A DNA stretch of 58,820 bases from a virus, in IMG/VR virus record IMGVR_UViG_3300042923_001809, positions 1-58,820 of that record; one strand, written 5' to 3'. A program made the position numbers and the translations under genes. Of this stretch, positions 50,469-58,820 are shown piece by piece. Numbering within the stretch: the stretch's first letter is position 1; each line of letters starts with the position of its first letter. Below the pieces are notes generated by a model. The model did no database searches and was not told the DNA's origin. It was given only the letters and a program-made list of their open reading frames with translations.

Positions 50469-50912
50469 TTACAAAAGTTTATTTAAAGCTTTATAAGCTG
50501 TATGTAATCGATGAGATATAGCCGAGTGGTCCACTCCCTCCCGTTTTGCATAGTCATTTACAGATACTCCGTTAAAATAAATAGCAGTAATAAGTTCCCT
50601 CTGCTTCGGCTTCAGCCTGCCCACCGTATTCCGGATATGCTGCCTTGTATATTTACTCTCTAAGTCAGCGGCTATTTCAGCACTCTCAGAACAAATGCTA
50701 TTTTTAAATTCAAAAGCATCACGTGATAAGTGAGGATTGGTATCTGCTTGTCCATCAATATAGTCATAACCATCCAGTGAATTATGACGGCGAGTTTCTT
50801 TCCGGTTGACGTTATATTCTTTCCTGTCAAGTTCGAGGATGATTTCTCCCCACTCCTCTGAAACCTCAATTTCATGAGTTTGTCCAGTTACTGATGTGTA
50901 CCTGATTTTCAT
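50469..50912 (-). CDS. Sigma-70-like (region 4) protein
   Basis: The 147-residue protein has a first half (MKIRYTSVTGQTHEIEVSEEWGEIILELDRKEYNVNRKETRRHNSLDGYDYIDG) typical of small sigma-like proteins of mobile elements and a C-terminal helix-turn-helix region (LKPKQRELITAIYFNGVSVNDYAKREGVDHSAISHRLHTAYKALNKLL) like sigma region 4. It probably directs polymerase to phage promoters. Its ATG (50912) is in the 3' arm neighbourhood of a hairpin that hides AGGAGA, so translation is likely switched. Confidence 0.85.
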   Translation of the reverse strand: MKIRYTSVTGQTHEIEVSEEWGEIILELDRKEYNVNRKETRRHNSLDGYDYIDGQADTNPHLSRDAFEFKNSICSESAEIAADLESKYTRQHIRNTVGRLKPKQRELITAIYFNGVSVNDYAKREGVDHSAISHRLHTAYKALNKLL

Positions 50913-50915
50913 ACT

Positions 50916-50962
50916 GGTATCTCCTTTCTTTGCTGCCGGACAAGCCGGAAACAGGAGATACC
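50916..50962 (-). promoter_or_regulatory. Hairpin hiding the ribosome site of the sigma-like gene
   Basis: On the minus strand GGTATCTCCT (50953-50962) and AGGAGATACC (50916-50925) pair perfectly over 10 bp. The 3' arm contains the AGGAGA ribosome site four bases before the start codon. Within the 27-nt loop, CCGG and CCGG can pair too. Folding would block translation, so an upstream event or ligand must open it. Confidence 0.75.
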
Positions 50963-50975
50963 TGAAAAAAGGCAC

Positions 50976-51023
50976 AAAAAAATAAGACCTTGGCAACACT
51001 GTTTCCAGCGTTACCCCGGTCTT
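50976..51023 (-). terminator. Intrinsic terminator in the leader of the sigma-like gene
   Basis: On the minus strand AAGACC pairs with GGTCTT, with further pairs inside (GGTAAC with GTTGCC, CTG with CAG) around a GAAA tetraloop, and ATTTTTTT follows. It is a strong terminator placed about 60 bp before the gene's start codon, downstream of the structured element. Confidence 0.85.
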
Positions 51024-51110
51024 GGGTGGTGGCTTCTATATCGCTAATTCTACGGGAGAATCGTGAGCGGCGTCCTTGCGTAGAAGGTTGTACCAGGCGA
51101 TATATGCCCC
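50976..51110 (-). ncRNA. Candidate structured RNA/riboswitch-like leader
   Basis: Three helices are seen on the minus strand: an 8-bp stem TATATCGC/GCGATATA (51097-51104 with 51037-51044), an inner 7-bp stem TTCTACG/CGTAGAA (51079-51085 with 51048-51054) with a further short GGA/TCC pair inside, and a short outer GGC/GCC pair. A terminator follows within 20 bases. The layout, a multi-stem aptamer-like part, terminator and hidden ribosome site, resembles a riboswitch or attenuator. The class is not recognised, and a free-standing small RNA ending at the terminator is equally possible. Confidence 0.6.
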
Positions 51111-51139
51111 TATTGACTCAGTCGGTAATTCTTGCTCTA

Positions 51140-51322
51140 TTAATTATTTTTGGAATTTGCTTTCGCTTTCACTGCCCTCTGGGTATTAAAATTAATATGA
51201 TAAATCTTACCACATTCATGGCACCGGCATGATACCTTAATATCAGCCGGCTTATCTGCAAATGTCTTTCCTGTCCCACACCAGGGGCAGGTTATTACGA
51301 TAGGAAACTTGATATCATGCAT
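51140..51322 (-). CDS. Small zinc-ribbon protein
   Basis: The 60-residue protein has CPWC (Cys12, Cys15) and CHEC (Cys34, Cys37), a Com-like or zinc-ribbon fold, and a basic tail. The ATG follows AAGGAGAG. Lying at the head of the early operon, it may be a small regulator or a translation factor as Com is for Mu. This is inferred. Confidence 0.7.
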   Translation of the reverse strand: MHDIKFPIVITCPWCGTGKTFADKPADIKVSCRCHECGKIYHINFNTQRAVKAKANSKNN

Positions 51323-52101: not shown

Positions 52102-54324
52102 TTATCTTACAGTAACTCTTACCGGTTGAACTGGTGTAAAACGTCCTGCTGTTTCTTTTATTATTTCTGAATACAAATTTCCTGCTTCCGTTAAATCCTC
52201 AACTGTTATTACCAATGAATATGGTATTTCGTCATCATCCGCAACTCCCCATCGAGTAAACAACTCAAGCCATATTTCCCAACTTCCAGCGTCAAAACTT
52301 GAGAAGGTATTTGAAAAATGGAAGCATGAATCCCACTTATTACGATTATCTGCAACCGGTGGATTATCTACTACATTATTACCATTTGAATTTAATCTAT
52401 GTATAGATGTTGTAATGTAAGCTGCAGAATATTCACTTCCTTTTGTTCTATCTACTGGTGGTTGAGCTAAACACGTAACAGTAACCTTAACTTTTGATTC
52501 ACCCCGTTTTACCTTTGCCTCGGCAATTACCGTTGGAATATGAAATTTAACTCTTTTTTTTGTTAAACGGTTTAAGCTTCCTGCGTGTAAGAAAGACACT
52601 TTATTCTCAGAAGAATACATGCTATTTCTTGGTGATGATAGTCCTCTTCCATATAAATTTCCGGCAAAATCTGCCTCTTCTTGTGTTATATCTTCCTTTG
52701 TAAAAAGTGGAATTGCTCCATTATATAGTAAAGCCTGTGCCAGACCTACATCTTCATTAGGCACTGTTAGTAGTATTTCTGCAAGGTCACCTGCTACCGT
52801 TGGCGTTGTAAAACTCGTTCCTGGCAAAGCACAATAACCGGTTGATGAAAGGCACAACGCGTATGGATCACTTGGTGTCATACCATTTTTAAATTGAGTA
52901 GCTCCATAGGCAACAATATCCGGTTTATAAAAACCGCAAAATCCCGGGCCACGTCTTGAATAAGGAGCAATGTCTTTTTCCTTACTTACACTACCAGGGT
53001 GTGTTTGACCTACGACTGAGCCCACTGTAATTGCAAGCATAGCATCTGCAGGTTCAGCAATCTTGCTGTCGTCATCATCCAAAATGTCTTTCAGGTTATT
53101 TTCCGAAAAACCTAATTGATGATTTCCTGCCGATACAACGAATTTAACACCATATTTTCTAGTAAGCATATCCAGTTCACATCCTAATATACTCATTTCG
53201 TCCCCATCGATTGGCTGACTTGCATTGTATGAAAAGTTATAAATTTTTGCTACTGATGCAAAAGTATCAACAGCCTCTCTTATTCTTTTGATGACAACAT
53301 TTGATGGTGTTTTGTCGCTATCAATTATATTAGCATCAATAATTTTTGCTCTTGGTGTTAAATAAGGGTCTGGCAAATGAAATCCAAGCTCTTCGAAAGC
53401 CGCTCTACTCGCAACAGGAGTACCATGATTTCCAAAGAAAGAGGGTACGCTACATCCTGTTGCTCTCCAATGGACAGGTACGATACCAGCTAAACCTGCT
53501 GGTAAATTAACGCCATCATCCAATATAACAATTGCAGGTAAATCTTCAATTTTAATACCTGGATCTAGTTGCAGTCCTTTTCCTAATGGAATAGACGCAC
53601 TAGGAGCGTAGACTTGAAAAAAAGATGTTTCCTCGATTCTGTAGATTGCTTGATCATCTGCAATTTCATTAAAACTTGCCATAGTAACCATTGCTCTGAT
53701 AATTGCTGTTCCATCAGTTAACCGATACGGTTCACCTTGGAGAGTTCCATTTTTACTTACAATTTTCTCAGTCAATTTAGTCTGAGCCCTTTGTTGGATA
53801 TCCTCTCCTAAATTTGGTAATAACATCATTTGAACGTCTACGGAAATCCGCTCTTTGTTTTCTTCAAGGTAACGCGCTAAAGACGATGATTGTTTATCAA
53901 CAGATCTAAACGGCTCAAATCCATTAATATACTGAAAATCATGTACTGTTCCTTGATCTCTGTATCTATTAATTCGCCCCTGTAAGCTATCAAAAATGTC
54001 TCTTTTTGCGGAAACAACAGCATGATTTTTATCTCTTACTGCATTTATTTTTAAGCCTTCATCTTCCATTAATTTTTTACGGTTAGAAAAATCCTCACCA
54101 TCCTGGAGCACTACCTTAAAGGTCATTATATCTTCATCACTTAAAGAATCTCCTGCTCTTAACCTTTGAAATACATCAAATATTTCCTGCAGTCCCTGAG
54201 ATAATTTATTGCCATGTTCTGCATAATCTAATCCATACTCCTTATTTCGGCCGGTTGGCTTTTTTATTATATCCTTAATTTCTTCTGATGGTATCCATAA
54301 ATGTCGTTTTTGTTCATCATTCAT
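52102..54324 (-). CDS. ietS: S8-family serine protease (IetS-like)
   Basis: The 740-residue protein holds a subtilisin-like domain with Asp270 (VILDDGV), His300 (FFGNHGTPVAS), oxyanion Asn401 (VVSAGNHQLG) and Ser504 (PGTSFTTPTVAG). It has a long N-terminal region (about 1-255) and a strand-rich C-terminus. No signal peptide is seen, so it acts in the cytoplasm. The 8-bp overlap with the AAA ATPase gene upstream matches the IetAS defence pair (AAA ATPase plus subtilase). The ATPase may unfold or hand over substrates to the protease. Targets are not known. Confidence 0.88.
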   Translation of the reverse strand: MNDEQKRHLWIPSEEIKDIIKKPTGRNKEYGLDYAEHGNKLSQGLQEIFDVFQRLRAGDSLSDEDIMTFKVVLQDGEDFSNRKKLMEDEGLKINAVRDKNHAVVSAKRDIFDSLQGRINRYRDQGTVHDFQYINGFEPFRSVDKQSSSLARYLEENKERISVDVQMMLLPNLGEDIQQRAQTKLTEKIVSKNGTLQGEPYRLTDGTAIIRAMVTMASFNEIADDQAIYRIEETSFFQVYAPSASIPLGKGLQLDPGIKIEDLPAIVILDDGVNLPAGLAGIVPVHWRATGCSVPSFFGNHGTPVASRAAFEELGFHLPDPYLTPRAKIIDANIIDSDKTPSNVVIKRIREAVDTFASVAKIYNFSYNASQPIDGDEMSILGCELDMLTRKYGVKFVVSAGNHQLGFSENNLKDILDDDDSKIAEPADAMLAITVGSVVGQTHPGSVSKEKDIAPYSRRGPGFCGFYKPDIVAYGATQFKNGMTPSDPYALCLSSTGYCALPGTSFTTPTVAGDLAEILLTVPNEDVGLAQALLYNGAIPLFTKEDITQEEADFAGNLYGRGLSSPRNSMYSSENKVSFLHAGSLNRLTKKRVKFHIPTVIAEAKVKRGESKVKVTVTCLAQPPVDRTKGSEYSAAYITTSIHRLNSNGNNVVDNPPVADNRNKWDSCFHFSNTFSSFDAGSWEIWLELFTRWGVADDDEIPYSLVITVEDLTEAGNLYSEIIKETAGRFTPVQPVRVTVR

Positions 54325-55465
54325 TATCTAACACCCCCTTATATTTTTTTACTTGATAGTCTAGCGTATTATGTGATATTCCCATAGCCTTTGCTGCGGC
54401 TCTCAATGAAACGCCGCGCTCCAACATCTCACAAATTACTTTCATTGATTCATCTCCGCTATCTGAGAATTTTGTTAATTGTTGAATTAATATAGCCATC
54501 ACATCTTCTGTTTTCAGTTTCTGATCAATTAAATATTTTTTAGCTGCTGCTGTCATCAATTCTTCAAGCTGTGCTCCACTTATTCCTTCTGAAACTTTTG
54601 CAATCGCTTTACAATCAACCTTTGCCTCAATTCCATACTTTTCAATACCTTTTTGTATTAATGTTTTTCTTTGCTCTTCATTTGGTAATTCTAGATTAAT
54701 TGTAACATTAAATCTACGCCAAATAGCTGGATCCAATAAGTGTTCATGATTTGTAGCAGCAATCAAAAAAACATTAGCTGGCATATTATCAAAATTTTGA
54801 AGCAAAGTTGTAACTACACGCTTTAGCTCTCCTAGTTCGTTACTATCATCACGTTTTTTTGCAATGGCATCAAACTCATCCAAGAATAATATTATTCTCT
54901 GATTTCTTACTGAATCAAAAACTTTCCTTAGATTTGTACTTGTTTGCCCTAAATAGGATGAAACCAATCCATCTAAACGTACGTATGCTATTGGTAAATC
55001 TAACTCATGTCCTAATGCATATGCTGTAATAGTTTTTCCACAACCTGGCGGACCACACAATAAAACTCTATTTACTGGTGTCATACTATGCTTCAATAGA
55101 TTTGCAGCATTCTTTTGTTCTGACATAATTTGTTCCAATATTTTTTTTTGGTTTTCTGGCAAGATAACATCATTAAAAGATACATTAGGTCTAACTACTT
55201 CATACAATTCTAATAAGCTATCTTTATCTCTTGGTGTTGCTGTCTGTGATGATTGGGCAGAAAACCCTGATATACTTCCGCCAATATCAGATGATGCATT
55301 TCCACTCTTTTTTCTATTTTCATAAGCCCGCCTAAGCCGTGATGCTGTTGGAACATTTCCTTTTTTCTCTTCATCACTCACCAATTTATTTATCGCTTCT
55401 AAGAATTCTCGTTCATCACCGCTACAATGAGCTATAATTAAATTTTCTATAAGCTCTGATTTCAT
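54317..55465 (-). CDS. ietA: AAA+ ATPase with C-terminal HTH (IetA-like)
   Basis: The 382-residue protein has an N-terminal helical domain, then an AAA+ core of the FtsH/Cdc48 kind: Walker A GPPGCGKT (138-145), Walker B ILFLDEFDA (192-200), and an arginine-finger region (DPAIWRRFN). The last 40 residues (LERGVSLRAAAKAMGISHNTLDYQVKKYKGV) form a helix-turn-helix, so it may control its own promoter. It lies with the IetS-like protease in one transcript. The promoter carries two copies of a 23-bp repeat. Confidence 0.88.
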   Translation of the reverse strand: MKSELIENLIIAHCSGDEREFLEAINKLVSDEEKKGNVPTASRLRRAYENRKKSGNASSDIGGSISGFSAQSSQTATPRDKDSLLELYEVVRPNVSFNDVILPENQKKILEQIMSEQKNAANLLKHSMTPVNRVLLCGPPGCGKTITAYALGHELDLPIAYVRLDGLVSSYLGQTSTNLRKVFDSVRNQRIILFLDEFDAIAKKRDDSNELGELKRVVTTLLQNFDNMPANVFLIAATNHEHLLDPAIWRRFNVTINLELPNEEQRKTLIQKGIEKYGIEAKVDCKAIAKVSEGISGAQLEELMTAAAKKYLIDQKLKTEDVMAILIQQLTKFSDSGDESMKVICEMLERGVSLRAAAKAMGISHNTLDYQVKKYKGVLDNE

Positions 55466-56010: not shown

Positions 56011-56706
56011 TCACTTAATAAAAATAAATATATACTCGTGTGCCAACAACAAAAAGGAACTATGTTGTTTCTCCCAAAACTTTGTTGATTTACAATTATG
56101 TTGCTCTTTTATAACTATTTCCTTAGACTTAAATTTTGCATTTAGAAAACAATTCATGACTTGGAAACCTAATGGAACAACACAACCTTTACTGCGGATG
56201 TCACCCATCATAACCGCACAAAGTCTTCCCTTTTTTAATACTCGATATGCCTCTCTCGCAACATTATTCATTTGATGTATAAATTCTTCTACTCCTAATA
56301 ACGACAGATCTCCATCTAGACTTTGGCTATAATTAATGATATCTGCATATGGTGGATGCGTGCAAATAAGATCCATACTCTCATTTGTAATAAATGACAA
56401 ATTGCGTGCATCGCCTTTTTTAACATTTTGCTGGGTTTTAGTATTGCATTGGAAATTAAGATTTTGGTTAGATAATAAAATAGATTGCTCATTGATATCG
56501 ACACCAATGGCATTACGATCAAGTAGTTTTGCTTCGACTAATGTAGTACCACTTCCTAAGAATTGATCTAGAATCCATTCATTTGGTTGACTATAACGAA
56601 GAATAATATTTCTTGGTACATATGGGGACCAATTTCCTCTGTATACCCCACAATGAGTAGCCCAATCACCTCTTTCAGGAAATGACCAAACAGTTGTTGA
56701 CTCCAA
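56011..56706 (-). CDS. DNA methyltransferase next to the AlwI-like enzyme
   Basis: The 231-residue protein has a SAM-binding motif LDQFLGSGTTLVEAKLL and a catalytic HPPY in ICTHPPYADIINYSQ, the order of alpha-type N6-adenine or N4-cytosine enzymes. The family usually begins with about ten further residues before TTVWSFPERGDWATH. Upstream, a strong AAGGAGG (56741-56747) is followed in frame by ATT and ATA but no ATG, and an in-frame TAA lies before it. The track start here, TTG 56706, has no good site, so the true start may be a rare codon near 56733. It pairs with the 56988 restriction gene. Confidence 0.8.
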   Translation of the reverse strand: MESTTVWSFPERGDWATHCGVYRGNWSPYVPRNIILRYSQPNEWILDQFLGSGTTLVEAKLLDRNAIGVDINEQSILLSNQNLNFQCNTKTQQNVKKGDARNLSFITNESMDLICTHPPYADIINYSQSLDGDLSLLGVEEFIHQMNNVAREAYRVLKKGRLCAVMMGDIRSKGCVVPLGFQVMNCFLNAKFKSKEIVIKEQHNCKSTKFWEKQHSSFLLLAHEYIFIFIK

Positions 56707-56850
56707 CTCAAATTTATTTGGTTCTAATTTTATATCAATACCTCCTTACACTATATTTTATCTGCATTATACTACTAAACACATAATAATACTAGTAAAT
56801 TTTTCCTCTTTCCCTCTTATTAAATCATAGAAATCATTTTACAGAAAAAA

Positions 56851-56888
56851 GAGACAAGCCATCATTCACCTACTTGATGACTTATCTC
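56851..56888 (-). terminator. Terminator of the restriction enzyme gene
   Basis: The 14-bp arms at 56851-56864 and 56875-56888 pair with two G-T steps around a 10-nt loop, and TTTTTT follows on the minus strand. It separates the restriction gene from the methyltransferase, which therefore needs its own promoter. Confidence 0.8.
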
Positions 56889-56987
56889 ATTTTTGATTTC
56901 TTTTCTTCCTTTTCATTATTAGAAGTAATTTTGACACTAATAAACAAATTTATATTTTCCGATAATCTTACAATCAATCCAAATCTT

Positions 56988-58820
56988 TTAAGCTTGTATC
57001 ATTTTATTCTTTATCAATTCTGAAATCATAAAATCAATATCTCGTTTCCACTCTGGTGCTTCTCTTCCGTACTTTAAATCAAAACACGCAGTGAATAAAC
57101 TTAATAATTTGTCAGGATGCACAGTATTATTCTCAAATAAACTTTTAAAAAATGATGCAAATTGACTTAATGTAAATGGTACAATTCTCAATGCCATTTT
57201 TTTGTCATCTTGAGTATACCAAACCCCAATTCGAAAAGTTTCTGCTGTATTTGAATCTATTTTATTAGCAATAAACATTCCATAAACAGGCTTATTATTA
57301 TTTAAAACAAGATCTGCTACATGTCGACGAACTGGTTCACCCTCCATGGCCTCCTGCCTTGAATTTGTTGACATAGTAACTTCAACTACAATAATATACT
57401 CATCAAATTCAAAAATCATGTCTGGTCCGCCGCCTGGTGCTGTTCCTACAGGCAAATAATCTTGATCTATACTAAATCCCCTGGCTTCATATGGCTTATT
57501 AGATATATGATTTATTGCTAAAAAAGCTCGCCATAAAATCCATTCTAAGTATGCTGCAGCCTCAGACTTAGGAACTTTAATTGTATAATCTTCATTCAAC
57601 TCTTTTTCCTGTCCATTATTAACAACTAACAAATTCATATACTCATAAATTTCTTTCCACTCATTATATTGATTTTTAGCGTATTCCTCCTCTTTGAACT
57701 TATCAATGTCCCTCTTTAAGCTGTTTCGTACCATATTTATATTAGCTGCTGAATCAAGAGGTACATCTGGAATAGTATATTGGATATTATATGTAGTCAA
57801 CTCCGAAACCAGATCTTGTAAAACTTGATTTGCTGTATCAATATTGTCCGTTGGTAACGGCGCACCATTACATAATTGCTTGTATCGCTCAATTAACGGC
57901 TCTGAACTTGTAACTTTCTTACTAAGTTCAAAAGCTAAAGTTCGATACTCTGGTACAATACAGATACCTCTTCCTGCTCTCTTGACAATTCCTGAAGATA
58001 CAATATATCGTAGATTCATATCAGCATAATCACTAAAGTTTACTTTTAGTTTTAAGTAATGTTCCCATGCTAAATCGATCAAATCTCGATCATACTTTTT
58101 CTTATTATTTGCTGCCATCCTATTTTTTCTTATATCCAAAACCTTCTCAACAACTTTATCAACATCATAATTAGGATTAGTTGTTTGAACACATATTGCA
58201 AATTCAATAAAATTAATCCTTGTATCTCCTGTAATTTCCTCCAACTTAAACATCACAGTAAGTACCCATAGAAGCGGTGAATAACTAAGTTCCTCGGTTA
58301 GCTTTTCCATTGGTACAACTAACCCTCTCAAAAAGCACTCTTGTTGTGCAGAAATAGTATCGGCATTATAAAATGTTTTGCCAATAGGTGTTATGTCATC
58401 CACTGGACCCAATTCAGTTTGAGAAAAACCATCTTTTAATGTTACTTCTGGATATGCAAATCCATATTTATTAAACATAAGTCTATATTTACGAGTTATA
58501 CTAGCATCTTGATCTTTATTTAAGTCACCACCTATTTCACCTGTATGGAATAGTAGTTTTTTAAAAGCCACCTGATCTTTTGGTTCACGTAATTTCCCTA
58601 CTAAATTTGACTCGACATATACTTTAAATCCACTGGGTATACGCCATGGATTTCTCATTCCTGTATTCCCAATTAGCCAAATATCTATTGGTTCTTTTAC
58701 AACCCTGGTCTCTTCAACTGTTTTTTCCTTAGTTTTTTCGCCATCCTTATATTTAATTTTCTTTGATTCTGTTACCTGATAAACATCCTGTCCAATTTTA
58801 ATTATTTTTGCCTTCGCCAT
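56988..58820 (-). CDS. AlwI-family type IIS restriction endonuclease
   Basis: The 610-residue protein matches the AlwI family: IDIWLIGNTGMRNPWRIPSG at residues 45-64, then SNLVGKLREPKDQ. The catalytic PD-ExK core is GPDMIFEFDEYIIVVEVTMS near residue 465-485. AlwI itself reads GGATC and cuts outside it; related enzymes read similar five-base sites, so this one's site should be tested. The ATG at 58820 is the last base of the window, and the frame could extend beyond it, but the family usually begins near here. A second methyltransferase is normally needed for such an asymmetric site. Confidence 0.9.
   Translation of the reverse strand: MAKAKIIKIGQDVYQVTESKKIKYKDGEKTKEKTVEETRVVKEPIDIWLIGNTGMRNPWRIPSGFKVYVESNLVGKLREPKDQVAFKKLLFHTGEIGGDLNKDQDASITRKYRLMFNKYGFAYPEVTLKDGFSQTELGPVDDITPIGKTFYNADTISAQQECFLRGLVVPMEKLTEELSYSPLLWVLTVMFKLEEITGDTRINFIEFAICVQTTNPNYDVDKVVEKVLDIRKNRMAANNKKKYDRDLIDLAWEHYLKLKVNFSDYADMNLRYIVSSGIVKRAGRGICIVPEYRTLAFELSKKVTSSEPLIERYKQLCNGAPLPTDNIDTANQVLQDLVSELTTYNIQYTIPDVPLDSAANINMVRNSLKRDIDKFKEEEYAKNQYNEWKEIYEYMNLLVVNNGQEKELNEDYTIKVPKSEAAAYLEWILWRAFLAINHISNKPYEARGFSIDQDYLPVGTAPGGGPDMIFEFDEYIIVVEVTMSTNSRQEAMEGEPVRRHVADLVLNNNKPVYGMFIANKIDSNTAETFRIGVWYTQDDKKMALRIVPFTLSQFASFFKSLFENNTVHPDKLLSLFTACFDLKYGREAPEWKRDIDFMISELIKNKMIQA

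Follow-up and report, generated by a model that had tools for sequence, protein, structure and literature searches.

How is the gene at the head of this phage's replication operon kept under control? The window, by which we mean the whole 58,820-nt stretch of viral DNA analysed, carries on its minus strand a sigma70 region-4-like gene preceded by a leader that had been described, from the letters alone, as two layers of control. The 146-aa gene product has one Pfam match only (PF08281, 28.0 bits against a gathering cutoff of 25.7, residues 93-143), and activity as a sigma factor with RNA polymerase is no more than predicted. Downstream lie small genes, a DUF2800 gene, an Enc34-type single-strand-binding protein gene and a 657-aa ORF that appears, by sequence and not from a domain search, to encode a DNA polymerase. 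Searches of phage and plasmid collections returned no DNA-level relatives. The sigma-like gene has only two distant phage relatives and, with the homologue L008 as query, none in plasmids; a full-length relative was found in 8 of 391 sampled Clostridia-class genomes (about 2%, E <= 1e-30).

The region upstream also carries genes of another kind. An AAA ATPase and subtilase pair at 52102-55465 (-) scores as IetA (1.8e-106) and IetS (1.3e-63) in PADLOC, an IetAS-type anti-phage defence system carried beside the phage control region. It is adjoined at 56011-58820 (-) by genes for a Type II methyltransferase (1.6e-90) and a Type II restriction enzyme (2.4e-154), so that a small island of defence genes lies at the edge of the window.

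The features on which the analysis turns are the following, in the direction of transcription.

51140-51322, minus strand: 60-aa four-cysteine zinc-ribbon gene (CPWC..CRCHEC), proposed cognate activator (ORF; relatives upstream of the same RNA)
51113-51125, minus strand: conserved 5' motif CCGACUGAGUCAA (invariant within type I; its CYGAG-CAA core common to the wider family)
51106-51110, minus strand: P1 outer helix, 5' strand GGGGC (fold; covariation across the family)
51097-51104, minus strand: P1 inner helix, 5' strand UAUAUCGC (fold; 95.8% of cells paired in close relatives)
51079-51085, minus strand: P2, 5' strand UUCUACG (fold; two pairs with double, compensatory changes in relatives)
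51048-51054, minus strand: P2, 3' strand CGUAGAA (fold; close relatives)
51037-51044, minus strand: P1 inner helix, 3' strand GCGAUAUA (fold; close relatives)
51028-51033, minus strand: P1 outer helix, 3' strand GCC(A)CC with an invariant bulged A (fold; family alignment and covariation)
50984-51023, minus strand: intrinsic terminator hairpin with GAAA loop (sequence and fold; double changes in the family)
50999-51009, minus strand: segment A, GCUGGAAACAG, at the terminator apex, complementary to B (11 contiguous pairs)
50976-50982, minus strand: T7 tract of the terminator (sequence)
50953-50962, minus strand: anti-SD arm GGUAUCUCCU (sequence and fold)
50944-50954, minus strand: segment B, CUGUUUCCGGC, beside the anti-SD arm (complementarity to A)
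50916-50925, minus strand: SD arm AGGAGAUACC, ribosome site of the ATG at 50912 (sequence and fold; SD paired in 46/46 scored leaders)
50469-50912, minus strand: sigma70 region-4-like gene, gated by the leader and heading the replication operon (PF08281; phrog_11138, E=4.5e-33)

From 5' to 3', the leader thus consists of CCGACUGAGUCAA, the outer and inner P1 helices, P2, the GAAA terminator with its T7 tract and a 10-bp SD hairpin, followed by the ATG at 50912. Folding of positions 51125-50912 on the minus strand gave a z of -5.5 relative to dinucleotide shuffles; over a 226-nt stretch the minimum free energy was -83.4 kcal/mol, compared with -59.1 +/- 4.4 kcal/mol for the shuffles, none of 200 of which was as good. 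The initial annotation had placed the leader at 50913-51110. All elements that it described there were found on the minus strand and in the fold, namely the nested stems of 8 bp (the AUAUCGC-type P1 inner helix) and 7 bp (P2, inside it), the terminator (AAGACC..GGUAACGCUG-GAAA-CAGUGUUGCC..GGUCUU, then T7) and the perfect 10-bp hairpin GGTATCTCCT/AGGAGATACC covering the SD (AGGAG) of the sigma-like gene. The boundary itself had to be moved, as the element starts earlier, at about 51125, some 14 nt past the stop codon of the upstream gene. Four features had been overlooked: the outer P1 helix GGGGC/GCC(A)CC, an inner stem within the SD hairpin, the upstream zinc-ribbon gene and a possible pairing between the terminator tip and the anti-SD region.

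A sigma70-type scan found no promoter-like site in the 60 nt between terminator and ATG, and transcripts of the sigma-like gene should therefore pass through the terminator. A second terminator-like hairpin (GCAGGA..TCCTGC with a T-rich tail, 51406-51387, minus strand) lies between an HTH gene and the zinc-ribbon gene, so that the zinc ribbon and the leader form a unit bounded by terminators on both sides. Ahead of the ATG, the frame of the sigma-like gene stays open as far as a GTG that lies within the terminator (50999-50912, minus strand). We considered this extension as a leader reading frame and rejected it; a stop interrupts it in L005, and it is therefore probably accidental.

Homologous genes were gathered from IMG/VR, GTDB genomes and whole-genome searches. 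Their 83 leaders fell into 29 groups by blastn, and most could not be aligned between groups; some singletons, whose start calls were doubtful, were left out of the tests that followed. In a strict test (terminator threshold <= -10 kcal/mol plus an occluded SD), both features occurred together in 34 of 40 non-redundant homologous leaders, compared with 7 of 108 control genes from the same contigs (Fisher p 2e-20, relatedness ignored). By an independent count, a stable hairpin concealed the SD in 93% of 46 leaders and in 16% of 196 control genes. Both features were present in at least one member of 17 of the 22 unalignable leader groups, although the leader sets are not phylogenetically independent. 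The order was the same in nearly all homologous leaders: a terminator-like hairpin and then the SD-hiding hairpin. At the level of sequence, then, it is the architecture of the leader and not its letters that the homologues keep, and the idea of two control layers before the sigma-like gene is strongly supported by this conservation. Related switches combining termination with SD hiding appear to precede genes of this kind in many phages of Clostridia.

One set of homologues stands apart in its uniformity. The leader is identical over the 120 nt compared, and the sigma gene is shared as well, in L016, L017, L018, L021 and L049, which come from Fonticella, Thermoanaerobacterium, Thermoanaerobacter, an Oscillospiraceae MAG and a viral contig; the leader of L019 (Thermotalea) is nearly identical. 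This points to one element having spread recently among distant Clostridia.

Phage genes are often separated by terminators, which preceded 23 of the 108 control genes. The two structures could thus be mere insulation, with the terminator ending the zinc-ribbon unit, the SD hairpin silencing chance read-through and the sigma-like gene being served by an unrecognised promoter, for example one inside the leader read by a phage factor. Non-sigma70 promoters lie outside our promoter scan, and T4 late promoters do start inside RBS hairpins. Insulation would nevertheless leave unexplained why terminator and SD hairpin are coupled almost universally at one gene, why the P1 helix with its bulged A covaries and carries conserved single-stranded motifs, and why segments A and B are complementary. 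The 60 nt that remain after the terminator, moreover, contain no site of the sigma70 type. We consider this explanation rather improbable.

The covariation was seen once the leader had been placed in a wider family. With the terminator pattern of the window we found two distant IMG/VR leaders, L122 (identical to L133), which precedes an HTH gene heading a DUF2800/DUF2815/polymerase module, and L124 (identical to L134), which precedes another gene that is sigma-like by sequence. Further members lie before HTH genes in L135, L138 and L139. An alignment of 24 sequences, including leader types III and VI, revealed the core CYGAG-CAA, GGnnn, a variable insert, n'n'n'ACCA and the terminator; P2 is absent from most members. 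In RNAalifold, 11 of the 14 terminator pairs showed double changes across the family. The three P1 pairs that vary showed 13 distinct combinations, of which 9 were fully paired (e.g., AUC/GAU, CAC/GUG, CAA/UUG and AGC/GCU), a number never reached in 20,000 permutations (mean 3.1).

For a branch of 13 sequences, covariation was 0.42 compared with 0.17 after shuffling, with 33 versus 12.5 double-change cells and 0 of 500 shuffles as high. Covariation among homologous leaders had been named at the outset as the check to make, and its outcome depends on the range of sequences: compensatory changes are found across the wider family, but they are too sparse for a verdict when only the six leaders closest to that of the window are taken. 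Among these six, two P2 pairs are compensated (230 of 500 shuffles were as high, with few changes overall), the terminator and SD arms hardly vary, and the outer P1 pairs are damaged in two close relatives, L012 and L047.

A covariance model, R1, was built from the 13-sequence branch without type I sequences. It recovered the type I relatives L122/L133 (E 1e-4) and L124 (0.004), the HTH-gating L135 and L139, and L136/L048, L084 and L101. R1 does not detect the window leader itself, whose P2 insertion is long (about 60 nt); the window is tied to the family through L122, with which it has UUACCGACUGAGUCAA, GGGGCAUAUA, AGCCACCAC and the terminator core in common. In L080 (1209-1419), R1 also found the P1/terminator RNA twice in tandem ahead of a single sigma-like gene. 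Its search of 197 genomes yielded one clear new member, L141, and no P1 motif in the other 19 loci checked. In L141 (reverse complement, ~1507), the RNA precedes a 205-aa gene of a different type (MSRNNDSKKRKSNYNRNRTCYLSSDGKYYCYEAW..), and no zinc ribbon lies directly upstream.

A search of Rfam 15 gave no match in the window at the gathering threshold and only chance-level ones at E<=10; 16 homologous loci gave none either. This agrees with the initial annotation, which could not match the leader to a known riboswitch class. Judged by sequence comparison, the window leader is a member of a structured RNA family absent from Rfam, in which P1 and the terminator covary family-wide. Two possible identities were discarded: named Rfam riboswitches and DUF2800/DUF2815 motifs were rejected, as Rfam returned no match, and a likeness to TnpB/IS605 guide RNA, based on the motif GAAGCCACCAC, was set aside because this motif is the P1 3' strand and is conserved across loci of the same layout.

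P1, with its conserved unpaired CYGAG, CAA and ACCA segments, does look aptamer-like, and the RNA precedes different genes, as might be expected if P1/P2 sensed a metabolite or signal and chose between termination and read-through. We regard such a riboswitch as very unlikely: it corresponds to no Rfam class, most members do without P2, and the targets serve phage regulation and replication, not metabolism. A linked gene for a potential RNA-binding protein, moreover, offers a simpler ligand.

This linked gene encodes a zinc ribbon of about 60 aa with two cysteine pairs (CPWC and C-HEC) and, as in the case of Com, is located directly upstream of the target. Its best PHROG match was phrog_6504 (E=2.4e-6), and phrog_6417, a 'translational regulator', reached only E 0.15. 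Relatives lie directly upstream of the same RNA in L133, L134, L135, L136, L138 and L139, and in these loci the type I zinc ribbon and the RNA persist as a pair although the gated gene differs (HTH or another sigma-like gene). In 29 of 71 loci, an ORF with the zinc-ribbon pattern was present within 560 nt upstream, a density of 0.74/kb compared with 0.014/kb elsewhere in the same loci. For several of these upstream zinc ribbons, a PHROG 'translational regulator' was the best or second-best match (E 4e-6 to 5e-4).

Against the Pfam Com family (PF10122), the zinc ribbon of the window scored 9.2 bits, below the cutoff of 22.9, and its relatives also stayed below it (best 16.3). In hhalign, Mu Com was matched by group A8 with 95%, by A5 with 69% and by A2, the group of the window, with 8%, while A2 matched A5 with 89%; the spacing of the cysteines contributes to all these values. 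Because zinc ribbons cross-match through their cysteines, we do not claim membership in the Com family and give more weight to the lasting association of zinc-ribbon gene and RNA across loci.

No zinc ribbon can be recognised immediately before leaders of types II and III and some of type V; in the first two types another small protein occupies this place. In type III (e.g., L028, L057 and L067) it is a conserved protein of 62-66 aa (MLIRQPIRN..KPRVFDA..LELK..) without cysteine pairs, which by eye resembles a zinc ribbon that has lost its cysteines. We tried the cysteine-less upstream proteins of types III and II as degenerate zinc ribbons and dropped the idea, since hhalign gave weak values (11% and 0.4%, respectively). 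We propose that the zinc ribbon may be the activator that opens the leader.

The 5' half of the terminator (A) has, in many leaders, a complement in the sequence surrounding the anti-SD arm (B). With A taken up by the terminator and B by the SD, A:B pairing is excluded. With a wide definition of A, the complementarity exceeded that of dinucleotide shuffles in 22 of 41 leaders (p<0.05), and with a strict contiguous test in 14 of 40. The 11 bp of the window gave p 0.002-0.007 in a targeted, post hoc comparison with shuffles and were not significant in blind scans (p ~0.15). L124 has kept both segments intact, its SD arms having changed to CCUCC/GGAGG; A:B is invariant among relatives and for this reason provides no covariation. 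Naked RNA favours the OFF state. Forcing A:B costs 15 kcal/mol, and the pairing would therefore need a protein or co-transcriptional capture. The alternative pairing is thus suggested by the statistics.

The same complementarity, together with a terminator ahead of the SD hairpin in nearly all leaders, would also fit a control by RNA alone. The terminated leader RNA could use segment A to pair with B in trans on read-through transcripts and expose the SD, or act as an immunity RNA like P4 CI or P1 C4, the zinc ribbon being a separate matter. There is a precedent in IsrK, for which a silent read-through mRNA activated in trans by the short isoform is described (PMC4825925). The divergence of the leaders into many unalignable groups with a common architecture is likewise what one would expect of specificity determinants. 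In the intact short RNA, however, A is locked in a stable terminator, and neither the conserved P1 domain nor the zinc-ribbon linkage is accounted for. We consider control by RNA alone unlikely.

Our preferred reading, which we hold tentatively and at slightly less than even confidence, is that the leader gates the phage replication operon by a double lock, which is OFF by default and is opened by the zinc-ribbon activator together with read-through. Transcripts coming from the zinc-ribbon gene would reach the P1/P2 domain and then the intrinsic terminator, the first lock; in those that leak through, the SD of the sigma-like gene would fold into the hairpin, the second lock. The Com-like zinc ribbon would bind the P1 domain and favour read-through, and A, once free of the terminator, would pair with B beside the anti-SD arm and help to free the SD. 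Transcripts merely leaking past a formed terminator would stay silent. The gated gene would then drive or accompany expression of the replication module (DUF2800, Enc34 SSB, DNA polymerase), and the gate may be linked to induction.

Because the 5' half of the terminator would itself free the ribosome site, read-through and translation would depend on each other, and only properly antiterminated transcripts would be translated. A broader and more speculative proposal, which we consider possible but improbable, is that such leak-proof RNA gates are widespread in Clostridia phages, with the Com-like zinc ribbon and its cognate RNA as a portable module; diverged pairs would then set related phages apart in the manner of immunity specificities. 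Little is known about how Clostridia phages of the gut control lysis and lysogeny, and the leader offers a point of control that is conserved and open to testing, at which termination and translation may be coupled where replication operons begin. The reading also proposes a function for many small zinc-ribbon proteins annotated without one.

Attenuators, RBS-hiding hairpins and activators of the Com type are each familiar forms of control; what is added here is their combination, its spread among Clostridia phages and an RNA family absent from Rfam 15. A literature search, with most subscription journals outside its reach, found no paper describing the RNA or the combination. In the repZ leader of ColIb-P9, the SD is exposed when the anti-SD region pairs with the loop of a hairpin lying upstream. 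That system serves plasmid copy control with an antisense RNA and a leader peptide, neither of which was identified in the window. The immunity RNAs P4 CI and P1 C4 are derived from leaders, are complementary to sites in the same transcript and act by termination or RBS blocking on a phage replication or antirepressor operon; both repress. Neither is known to combine an SD-sequestering hairpin and an intrinsic terminator in the order of the window, and Rfam revealed no homology of the window leader to them.

IsrK of the Salmonella prophage Gifsy-1 (PMC4825925) resembles the window in having a terminator with read-through upstream of an mRNA with a hidden RBS, in a phage control gene, and in an alternative pairing between terminated RNA and downstream message, which in the window is known as complementarity only. 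Long-range cis pairing is the inactive form in IsrK, however, whereas its counterpart in the window would free the SD. Sequence, target and host phylum differ as well, and the passages on which this comparison is based mention neither a P1 domain nor a zinc ribbon. Phage Orf1 activates translation of Lactococcus abiD1 by binding a structure in the translation initiation region (PMC2661086); the likeness is one of mechanism, and abiD1 is an unrelated host defence gene for which the abstract notes no terminator layer.

In Mu, the mom mRNA has a translation-inhibition structure; Com binds to a hairpin beside it and opens the structure that occludes the RBS (PMC6483171). As in com/mom, the window has a gene for a small four-cysteine zinc protein immediately upstream of a gene whose start is hidden in a hairpin. 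Unlike com and mom, which overlap, the zinc-ribbon and target genes are separated by a terminator; the zinc ribbon of the window is not a Pfam Com member, its activating role is inferred, and the targets are sigma-like or HTH regulators before replication genes. If confirmed, Com-type translational activation, known from Mu, would extend to a large group of Gram-positive phages.
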